Assembly (NCBI GenBank): GCA_903905455.1 | Contig: CAIVGN010000101.1 | Span: 1-63,630 of the forward strand | Reading direction: 5' to 3' | Source of the DNA: an uncultured Archangium sp. | GTDB lineage: Bacteria; Myxococcota; Myxococcia; Myxococcales; Myxococcaceae | Length of the DNA: 63,630 nt | Part shown: piece after piece, positions 21,971 through 24,644 of the stretch | Numbering within the stretch: position 1 is the first letter of the stretch | How the letters are laid out: every line of letters begins with the position of its first letter | Translations under genes and position numbers: made by a program | The notes under the pieces: model-generated | Database searches by the model: none | What the model was told of the DNA's origin: nothing | The model's input: only the letters and a program-made list of their open reading frames with translations

Positions 21971-22390
21971 TCAGGTGCGGCGAAGGAAGAGCGACCCACC
22001 GGCGCGCACCGCCTCGAAGCGGAGCAGCGGCCGGGTCGCCGGCCCCTGGATGACGTGGCCGTCGATGCCGAACACCGAGCCGTGACAGGGGCACTCGAAG
22101 GTCTCGTCGGCGCGCGGCGCCACGTCGCAGGCGCCATGCGTACACACGCGCCAGACTGCCGCGAAGGTGTCGTCGGCCCGGTGCACCACCCAGGCGTTGA
22201 TCAACGCCTCGGGTCGCTCGAACACGGCGCTCCCGCCCACCACGTCGAGTGACGGGAAGTCGGACAGCGCGAACTCCGACCAGCCCGGCCCTCGCGGTGG
22301 GTCGCCCGCGTCGACGACCGGCGTGGACACCATGCCCCCGCACGCGCTGAACGCGAGCCCCCCCGCGAGGATGGCGCGGCGGCTGATCAC
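21971..22390 (-). CDS. Exported Rieske 2Fe-2S protein in a cobalamin-riboswitch operon
   Basis: From the GTG at 22388-22390 (overlapping the previous stop, GTGA) the product is 139 residues. The start SRRAILAGGLAFSAC combines a twin-arginine-like motif with a lipobox, so a folded cluster protein may be exported and lipidated. The Rieske motifs are CTHGACDV (first Cys-His) and CPCHGSVF (second Cys-His). Length fits a small Rieske ferredoxin-like domain with no catalytic partner. It is the last gene of the operon headed by a B12 riboswitch; its electron partner is not in the operon. Confidence 0.85.
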   Translation of the reverse strand: MISRRAILAGGLAFSACGGMVSTPVVDAGDPPRGPGWSEFALSDFPSLDVVGGSAVFERPEALINAWVVHRADDTFAAVWRVCTHGACDVAPRADETFECPCHGSVFGIDGHVIQGPATRPLLRFEAVRAGGSLFLRRT

Positions 22391-23046
22391 AGAGGCCCCC
22401 CGTTCACCACGGCCACCGCGTCGAGATCGAACCCGCCCCCCGGAGGCCCGTAGAACCGGTTGGCGCCGCTGTCGCTGATGCGCACGAAGCGGGCGCGCGT
22501 GAGCCCGACCTCCGCGAGATCGTAGCCCTCGCCCCCGGCCACCGCCGGGTCGGTGCCCGAGATGCCCAGCGCGGGGTTGGCGGACACCGGGTGCAGGCCC
22601 GCGCACCGGGACGGCCCCGCGTCGAGCCCGCAGGGGAACGCGCGCCAGTCGACCCCGTCCTCGCTGACCTCGACCGCGCCGGTCTCGAAGAAGCCGGCAA
22701 AGCCGTTCTCGAACACCAGCAGGTCCACGCCGGGGCCGTCGATGGCCACGAGATCGATGAACTCCAACTCGATGACGCCGAGCTTCCCCAGCGAGAGTAC
22801 GTCGAGCGAGCCCTGGGCCTCGCCCCCACCCGACGGGGCTCCGAGCACCACCTGGGGAAACAGGTCTTGCCCGAAGCCCGCACCGGGGCCCGGCGAAAAG
22901 CGCACGACGCGATCAGCCCACGGATCGACGGGGCGCGGTGGCCCGGCGTCGACTTCACCGTCGAGCACCACGCCCGCGTCGACGCTCGGCGGCGCGCCGC
23001 AGGCCGACACCAGGAGCAGGCTGATCAGCCGTGCGCCGCGCCTCAC
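22387..23046 (-). CDS. Surface lipoprotein with VFENGF-type domain
   Basis: The GTG at 23044-23046 overlaps the previous stop. The 219-residue product has a lipobox (LLLVSAC) followed by an acidic Ala/Pro spacer typical of exported myxobacterial lipoproteins. The body contains GPGVDLLVFENGF and VEVSEDGVDWRAF, features of a beta-sandwich family of secreted cell-surface proteins. The function is unknown. Its place between a propeller-like lipoprotein and a Rieske protein under a cobalamin riboswitch suggests a part in capture or handling of corrinoids at the surface. Confidence 0.7.
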   Translation of the reverse strand: MRRGARLISLLLVSACGAPPSVDAGVVLDGEVDAGPPRPVDPWADRVVRFSPGPGAGFGQDLFPQVVLGAPSGGGEAQGSLDVLSLGKLGVIELEFIDLVAIDGPGVDLLVFENGFAGFFETGAVEVSEDGVDWRAFPCGLDAGPSRCAGLHPVSANPALGISGTDPAVAGGEGYDLAEVGLTRARFVRISDSGANRFYGPPGGGFDLDAVAVVNGGPL

Positions 23047-24296
23047 GGCAGCACGCGCAGCACGCGTCGGCCGTTGCGATCGCTGACGCCGAGGAGGAGC
23101 TGCGTCCCACCACCCACCGCGAACACCACCCTGGTGCACCGGTGGGTCGCCTCCACGAAGGGCACCGGTCGGCCCGCACTCACCGTCTGCACGCCCGAGC
23201 CGGCGACGCTCATCGTCACCCGCGTGACCTGCGTGGTGAAGGACTCGAAGTTCGAGTCGTAACCGCCGCGCACGAGGATCGCGTCTTCGCCGAAGGTGGT
23301 GAGGTCCTGCAGGTCGTCACCGCTCGCCACGTCGACCGCGCCCGCGAGCGGGAACGAGGTGCGGGCGGCGAACGCGCTGGCGTACTGCGAGGCGGGCACG
23401 GCGCGCACGTGGTTCTGGAAGTCGGTGCCGTCGAAGTACCCCAGGAGCAGCACCCCGTTGGAGGTGACCCCGGTGAAGCCGTTGCTCGCCATCCACGCGG
23501 CGTCGAAGGTCGAGAAGCCGAACGCGCCCTGGGCATCGAGCGCGTACACCCCGGCGCCGGTCGCGCCGCCCACCTGGCCACCGTTGATCAGGAACGAGCC
23601 CTGGAACCCGACAGCCGTGTAGTTCGCCGGCGCGCTCACGTACTGCACGCCCGCGTCAGCCGTGTCGTAGACCACCACGTTCCCCGGGAAGCCCGCGCCC
23701 GACTTCGTGTAGCCGGCGAGCAACTGCGTGCCGCTGACCGCGAGCGAGCCCCCGAGGAACACGCTGGCGTTGGCCGCCTCGTCGGCCGGCGAGCGCACGT
23801 TGGCCAGCGGCGCGCTCTTCACCAGGTTCGGCAGTGAGCCGAGCTGGTAGAGCTGGTGATCGCTCCCCACGCCGTAGAGCGTCGCGCCGTTCACCCCCAC
23901 GGTGGTGATGCCCGTGGGCAGGACCGCGCCCTGCACCAGCGTCGCGCCGTTGCGCAGCACGAGGTCGCCGAGCATCGGATCGAGGGCCAGGGTCGCGCAG
24001 TCGATGCCGCCGTCGCCGTCGCCCGAACCCGCGTCGACCGGCCCCGCGTCCACCACCACGTCGGGCGCGCGGCACACGCCATCACCGCAGGTCTGCCCCC
24101 CGGCGCAGGTCGCGCACGACAGGCCGTTGAGCCCGCAGGCGCTCTGACTTGCGGCCGTCACGCATTCCCCGGCGGCCGAGCAGCACCCGTTGGCGCAGCT
24201 CTGCGCGCTGCACTTCGTCACCCCGGGTCCGGCGTTCGAGCAGCCCAGCACCACCACCGCGCACACCGCGGCGAACATCAGCGTCATCGTCTTCAC
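23043..24296 (-). CDS. Cys-rich, propeller-like surface lipoprotein under B12 control
   Basis: A GTG at 24294-24296 with strong AGGAG upstream gives 417 residues. A lipobox (VVVLGC) is followed by a Cys-rich module (about 28-80; [21 protein letters not shown]) and an Asp/Gly spacer. Residues about 110-410 repeat short beta strands with motifs such as [25 protein letters not shown] and [12 protein letters not shown], the look of a beta-propeller. In Bacteroides the propeller lipoprotein BtuG binds cobalamin at the surface; I infer a similar role here from the riboswitch, not from sequence identity. It is the first gene of the operon. Confidence 0.7.
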
Positions 24297-24429
24297 GTCA
24301 CTTCTCCTGCGCGACCCCCGCGGGTCACGTGTTGCTCGAGAAGGGACGACGCGACGGGAGACAGACGTCACCACCGAAAAGGCGCGAGGGCTCAGGCTGC
24401 CCCATCGCGCTCCCCTCGGAGCGGGTGGA

Positions 24430-24612
24430 CACTACATCGAGAGGCAGGTCTTCGGACTCACGGGCGCGCGCTCCAGCTTCAGAGCGCTCCTACCGGCCGT
24501 CGCTTCCCAGGCGCCCCCATGGCCCCCAGTGCTTCGAGTTGACGGCTTTCGTTCCTGCTTACCGCTGCGGGGCAGTCCCGGAATCACACCGGGTTCCCTT
24601 ACCTTCGACCCC
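24430..24612 (-). ncRNA. Cobalamin riboswitch
   Basis: On the minus strand the 5' core reads AAGGGAACCCGGTG, then TGATTCCGGGACTGCCCCGC, then AGCGGTAAGC (24557-24599). About 100 bases later comes GAGTCCGAAGACCTGCCTCTC (24439-24459). These are the conserved boxes of AdoCbl riboswitches in the right order and spacing. The switch points to the lipoprotein operon whose start is at 24296. Between it and the start lie small hairpins (CGCTCC/GGAGCG; GACCC-CCGC-GGGTC beside the AGGAG), so control of translation start is likely. Exact ends are approximate. Confidence 0.9.
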
Positions 24613-24615
24613 TCG

Positions 24616-24644
24616 CGTGTACGGCGCTCGATGCATGCGGTCAA
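24616..24644 (-). promoter_or_regulatory. Sigma-70-like promoter of the riboswitch operon
   Basis: On the minus strand TTGACC (24639-24644) and TACACG (24616-24621) are 17 bases apart, placing the start of transcription just before the first conserved riboswitch box. It overlaps the leader of the divergent yebC-family gene. Confidence 0.55.

Follow-up and report, generated by a model that had tools for sequence, protein, structure and literature searches.

Lipoprotein-assisted capture of vitamin B12 has so far been worked out in gut Bacteroides. In Bacteroides thetaiotaomicron, the lipoprotein BtuH2 (BT_1956) belongs to a cobamide-uptake locus under a B12 riboswitch; its C-terminal domain binds cyanocobalamin in the crystal, where the vitamin is contacted by Gln333, Asn399, Phe401, His476, Tyr510, Trp511, Trp577 and Leu578 (PMC8941943). 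The propeller lipoprotein BtuG occurs in the form of BtuG1 with a fused BtuH domain (PMC10404256). A further group, the corrinoid-binding jelly-roll lipoproteins of the BtuJ/DUF4465 family (IPR027828), is likewise linked to B12 riboswitches and has been reported from Myxococcota too (PMC13398666). For Rieske proteins, we found in the open-access literature no paper linking them to B12 uptake, only incidental genome papers.

The locus described here resembles the Bacteroides BtuG/BtuH system in its proposed mode of working. It lies in a window of 63.6 kb, the whole stretch of DNA analysed, which belongs to contig C101 of a genome of 8.6 Mb (98% complete) from a predatory soil bacterium; among named genomes of the collection its closest relatives are Myxococcaceae, with an Archangium MAG first. 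Most probably, it represents a cobalamin-repressed accessory operon for the capture of corrinoids at the outer surface, accessory to BtuB/BtuFCD. As with BtuG and the BtuG1 fusion, a propeller lipoprotein goes together with a BtuH-type domain under a riboswitch, and btuB/btuCDF are neighbours in relatives; unlike in BtuG1, however, the propeller and the BtuH-like domain are separate proteins here, and the propeller similarity is generic. Predatory soil bacteria, and further lineages besides, would thus have a surface protein with a BtuH-like domain linked to B12 riboswitches, from a family without a Pfam model. This gives a testable function to the VFENG/LIC_13355-type family, whose members have until now been labelled hypothetical proteins or adhesins.

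The riboswitch and the genes it faces

The features of the locus, all on the minus strand, are as follows.

24426..24628, minus strand: cobalamin riboswitch aptamer RF00174, full length (cmscan, model positions 1-189)
24297..24425, minus strand: leader, from the aptamer to the first start codon (fold prediction, terminator scan and sequence)
23043..24296, minus strand: gene 1, lipoprotein with a Cys-rich N-terminus and a beta-propeller domain (P0001), 417 aa
22387..23046, minus strand: gene 2, VFENG-family lipoprotein with a BtuH-like domain (P0002), 219 aa
22699..22716, minus strand: VFENxF motif of the VFENG protein, Asn invariant in 68 sequences and Phe kept in at least 90%
21971..22390, minus strand: gene 3, Tat-type lipobox Rieske [2Fe-2S] protein (P0004), 139 aa
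22082..22144, minus strand: Rieske cluster-binding and disulfide residues CTHGAC...CPCH, all six invariant in 18 of 19 sequences

When the window was searched with cmscan against all Rfam families, RF00174 was the single match, covering model positions 1-189 at 76.6 bits (E 4.2e-17) against a gathering score of 31.5. The clear cobalamin riboswitch of the original prediction is therefore confirmed by the covariance model, and it is one of two cobalamin riboswitches in the genome. The promoter that had been ascribed to it found no such support: a consensus scan for sigma-70 promoters was negative, a result that is not decisive in a high-GC myxobacterium.

The aptamer is oriented toward the three-gene operon and ends 130 nt from the start of gene 1. 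Within the leader the terminator scan saw no terminator, and the predicted minimum-energy fold (z -2.0) holds the Shine-Dalgarno sequence AGGAG of gene 1 in base pairs; on these grounds a translational expression platform may be the likelier. The predicted pairing is similarly suggestive of control of the downstream genes by corrinoid, and no stronger than that. Throughout the operon, every stop codon overlaps the GTG start that follows it (GTGA), so the three genes are almost certainly co-translated through translational coupling. Together with the match of the gene 3 product to Pfam PF00355 (E 1e-10), the genes and their overlaps agree with the predicted operon of a Cys-rich propeller-like lipoprotein, a VFENGF lipoprotein and a Tat/lipobox Rieske protein.

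A predicted BtuH-like fold and the neighbouring propeller

The VFENG family has an invariant lipobox cysteine, and Pfam scans placed the protein in no family. Its AlphaFold model has a pLDDT of 94.4 and a pTM of 0.90, and the top match of this model in a Foldseek search of the PDB was the BtuB1-BtuG1 complex. On re-alignment (VIA), BtuH2 came first, through its C-terminal domain at 315-592 (Z 14.2, rmsd 3.0, 152 aligned), followed by the BtuH domain of BtuG1 (chain B, 388-660; Z 12.5, rmsd 2.9, 151 aligned); generic galactose-binding-like folds reached Z 10.3 at most, with many CBM32 and discoidin matches at 8-10. Because the BtuH domains of BtuH2 and BtuG1 are the best PDB folds, ahead of the generic ones, the model suggests for the VFENG protein the role of a corrinoid binder of BtuH type, which would itself bind B12. 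Identity to BtuH2 and BtuG1 over the structural alignment is about 18-20%, and PDB searches with single sequences and profiles gave only chance matches, none of them to BtuH; the assignment thus draws on the predicted fold, the identity of about 18% and the gene context. The N-x-F spacing of the VFENxF motif recurs in Asn399 and Phe401 of BtuH2, a correspondence taken from spacing only.

Set against BtuH2, the VFENG protein is alike in being a lipoprotein of a cobamide-uptake locus under a B12 riboswitch, in its predicted fold and in the spacing of its N-x-F residues. It differs in lacking the PKD/Ig domains, in having a domain about 100 residues shorter, in showing no detectable sequence similarity and in coming from another phylum. 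Furthermore, its companions in its own genome are a propeller and a Rieske protein in place of a btuB operon.

Other assignments were rejected. The BtuJ/DUF4465 proteins resemble the VFENG protein in being small B12-riboswitch-linked lipoproteins, but none of the 68 family members matched Pfam DUF4465 at E 0.1. Pfam matches to Nodulin_late, PARP and Ago_N_2 were judged to be compositional noise, and a VFENG query against plasmids found nothing.

The product of gene 1 is confidently modelled as a beta-propeller (pLDDT 93.8) with a Cys-rich N-terminus, and its best structural matches are generic propellers. BtuG is absent from the best 50 structural matches listed, which does not in itself exclude a likeness, and neither Pfam nor single-sequence and profile searches of the PDB, where only chance matches appeared, gave a sequence match to BtuG. 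The gene 1 propeller is therefore not demonstrably BtuG. Hence the surface corrinoid-capture module that had been envisaged is strongly supported through the BtuH-like fold of the second lipoprotein, whereas a specific similarity of the first to BtuG, beyond a structure of generic propeller type, could not be demonstrated. Nor is the gene 1 propeller encoded beside btuB in its own genome, as a BtuG would be: the btuB-adjacent slot (locus L003) is taken by another Cys-rich propeller, and in relatives btuB lies near the operon. This second Cys-rich propeller, placed between btuB and btuF, sets the arrangement apart from the BtuG system and is unrelated in sequence; homology between the two propellers was considered and found unsupported beyond low-complexity Cys repeats. 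Judged by gene position, the propeller lipoprotein of the operon would be a capture or docking protein.

Outside Myxococcaceae, the propeller slot upstream of the VFENG gene is often filled by an undescribed repeat lipoprotein, whose members stand under cobalamin riboswitches and consist of up to three repeats (at least one), each about 95 residues long with GCGGFSWT at its end. It lies directly upstream of VFENG in L125 (8610-9818), L135 (8913-9926), L136 (2695-3372), L139 (8304-9716), L141 (8523-9842), L170 (8499-9803) and about 11 more loci; in L137 it is found between VFENG and Rieske. The members tested had no Pfam or PDB match. Possibly, the family is another corrinoid-linked surface protein.

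These elements can be combined in a model of capture. When cellular corrinoid is low, the riboswitch would permit synthesis of the three lipoproteins, probably through release of the ribosome-binding site. Corrinoids would be bound by the BtuH-like domain of the VFENG protein, the propeller lipoprotein would serve as a second capture or docking protein, and both would feed the BtuB-propeller-BtuF/BtuCD route encoded under the genome's other riboswitch. The Tat-exported Rieske lipoprotein may then engage in a one-electron exchange with the corrinoid, be it captured or delivered, such as between Co(III) and Co(II) of aquo- or hydroxo-corrinoids; this might aid release or protect the ligand. Within this scheme B12 binding and delivery to BtuB are inferred, and the redox step most of all.

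The Rieske lipoprotein and the redox question

The third protein shares with the Rieske subunits of cytochromes b6f and bc1 and with AioB a Tat-type export signal and a CTHxxC...CPCH arrangement that includes the disulfide cysteines. It is distinguished from them by a lipobox in place of a membrane anchor, by the lack of a cytochrome or oxidase partner and by its control through a B12 riboswitch. Among its relatives, the twin arginines and the lipobox cysteine never vary, and 18 of 19 retain the two Cys/His ligand pairs along with the disulfide cysteines. The exception, a homologue at 5284-5724 of L106 without the first cluster motif (CTHGAC), may be a decayed gene or an assembly error.

This Rieske protein is specific to its locus. 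In 60 genomes, all ten homologues scoring above 64 bits, our own included, are encoded directly beside a VFENG gene, and all other Rieske proteins in those genomes score below 64 bits. Pairs of VFENG and Rieske genes stand under a riboswitch in 20 of 20 loci, from several lineages of Myxococcota and Deltaproteobacteria; outside Myxococcaceae the pairing under a riboswitch is seen in L125, L129, L133, L136, L137, L139 and L142. Over 12 loci the Rieske protein and the adjoining VFENG protein have diverged in step (Mantel r 0.73), a pattern that functional coupling and shared species history alone would explain equally. About half of the Myxococcaceae loci have no Rieske gene; the protein is therefore optional and dispensable for capture.

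It is tempting to speculate that the Rieske lipoprotein performs an extracytoplasmic one-electron step on the captured corrinoid, a reading we put forward tentatively. In such a step, the corrinoid would pass between Co(III) and Co(II) while sitting on the propeller or the BtuH-like carrier, so as to loosen, load or protect the ligand before it is handed to BtuB. The recurrence of an intact Rieske cluster under the riboswitch, in 20 loci of several lineages, suggests that the attached redox step of the original prediction has become more plausible. A disulfide-type Rieske centre has a potential of about +0.3 V, and the aquo-Co(III)/Co(II) corrinoid couple lies at about +0.2 V. At these potentials electrons could pass between the two, with the Rieske centre more readily the acceptor than the donor. 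Reductive removal of a cyano or alkyl upper ligand is unlikely on account of the potential of about +0.3 V; the variant in which the Rieske protein strips the upper ligand is accordingly disfavoured on thermodynamic grounds, and a Co(II)/Co(III) step is still compatible with these values.

It is also quite conceivable, if well short of established, that the capture module stands and that the Rieske protein has no corrinoid redox role within it, being a carrier for some other surface or periplasmic enzyme needed at B12 shortage, or a structural partner. The many Myxococcaceae loci without the gene are in keeping with this, as are a potential too high for the reduction of cyano- or alkylcobalamin and a profile comparison in which the closest solved relatives are b6f/bc1-type Rieske subunits. 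Against it, in 20/20 cases the Rieske gene adjoins that of the putative corrinoid binder and follows a B12 riboswitch, and genes for a partner such as a dioxygenase or cytochrome b are absent alongside. A Rieske protein travelling with a BtuH-like lipoprotein across distant bacteria hints that B12 scavenging includes a redox step so far overlooked, and its recurrence as a locus-specific protein raises the question of whether electron transfer takes part in corrinoid import outside the cytoplasm. If true, this would be a redox-assisted route of B12 uptake not described for any bacterium.

Linkage to uptake genes and to the riboswitch in relatives

In many Myxococcaceae the operon is embedded in an array with the order btuB, Cys-rich propeller, btuF, btuC, riboswitch, propeller, VFENG and, where present, Rieske, followed by genes for an FHA/GAF/cyclase protein and a Ser/Thr kinase and then by btuD. 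In our genome this array is split over contigs: on contig C107 (L003) the second riboswitch leads into genes for a TonB-dependent receptor (btuB), a Cys-rich propeller lipoprotein and a BtuF-type periplasmic binding protein, and the BtuC permease is encoded on a third contig. The original statement that none of btuB, btuCDF or cob is here is thus correct for the operon itself, but not for its wider setting, as the genome holds btuB-propeller-btuF and btuC and the operon of relatives adjoins btuB, btuF, btuC and btuD. The genome also encodes the B12-dependent methionine synthase MetH, and CbiC and CbiG, markers of corrin-ring synthesis, were not found in it at 98% completeness. With MetH and uptake genes present and CbiC and CbiG absent, the bacterium is probably a corrinoid scavenger and consumer, seemingly with no B12 synthesis of its own. 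Its metH gene (genome G000) is broken into three fragments at contig ends on C140 and C222, an assembly gap.

For the wider comparison, 79 loci encoding relatives of the VFENG lipoprotein were retrieved and searched both with Rfam and with a profile built from Myxococcaceae riboswitches, the latter checked against a shuffled control. A gene was taken as linked if a cobalamin riboswitch lay on the same strand at most 4.5 kb upstream, and the count took in genes preceded by 3 kb of DNA or more. Across 60 relatives and our own genome, cobalamin riboswitches occur at about 0.25 per Mb; by chance, therefore, only about 0.05% of genes are expected to have one in the correct orientation no more than 4.5 kb upstream. 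The original prediction had named relatives without the riboswitch as evidence against it. Within Myxococcaceae, which hold 31 VFENG genes, a riboswitch lies upstream of all 29 for which the locus extends 3 kb or more upstream, so that no such relative turned up within the family among these genes. In other lineages, the same applies to 27 of 44 genes, mostly from Myxococcota and 'Deltaproteobacteria' with some from Planctomycetes and others, so that for about 40% of the non-Myxococcaceae relatives the retrieved locus DNA contains no riboswitch. The association between riboswitch and VFENG gene is not due to chance.

The VFENG protein has a distant match to NCBIfam NF033170 (LIC_13355) in 65 of 68 members (best E 1.4e-14), the protein of the window scoring below the curated cut-off. 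This distant relative in Leptospira has been described as an adhesin and not as a B12 binder: it is reported to bind laminin and plasminogen, in a paper that makes no mention of B12 (PMC11891782). Since it belongs to the same broad family, leptospiral LIC_13355 may be a BtuH-like B12 binder. A rival reading, in which the VFENG protein binds a glycan or another surface ligand in the manner of CBM32 or F5/8C domains and the riboswitch regulates a stress-type remodelling of the surface at B12 shortage, appears unlikely to us. The galactose-binding-like fold, with its many CBM32 and discoidin matches, and the reported laminin and plasminogen binding would fit it; however, the top two PDB matches are B12-binding domains that stand 2-4 Z units above the rest, btuB, btuF, btuC and btuD are neighbours, and the riboswitch linkage spans Myxococcota and some Planctomycetota and other loci. 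That the riboswitch serves gene 1 alone or the divergent YebC-type gene, only about 40 bp from the aptamer, and that the three genes are an accidental neighbourhood, is highly improbable, as the aptamer faces the operon, the genes overlap by GTGA, and many genera share the order riboswitch-propeller-VFENG(-Rieske) although the flanking genes differ.

The preferred reading thus remains that of an operon for corrinoid capture, and some further observations concern its distribution. The riboswitch-propeller-VFENG unit is tandemly duplicated in L098 (G035) and in the Corallococcus loci L112, L116, L118, L119, L121, L122, L124 and L168, each copy with its own riboswitch and beside btuB. Myxobacterial-type operons were also retrieved from L117 and L171, records that bear the titles Comamonas sp. 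KCTC 72670 and Bifidobacterium breve, probably through mislabelling or contamination. The genes for a conserved FHA-GAF-guanylate-cyclase-type protein and a Ser/Thr kinase, which in many Myxococcaceae follow VFENG or Rieske just before btuD (L092 2725-8212, also L093, L095, L096 and L098), occupy a position that suggests either a signalling link to corrinoid uptake or a mere conserved gene order.
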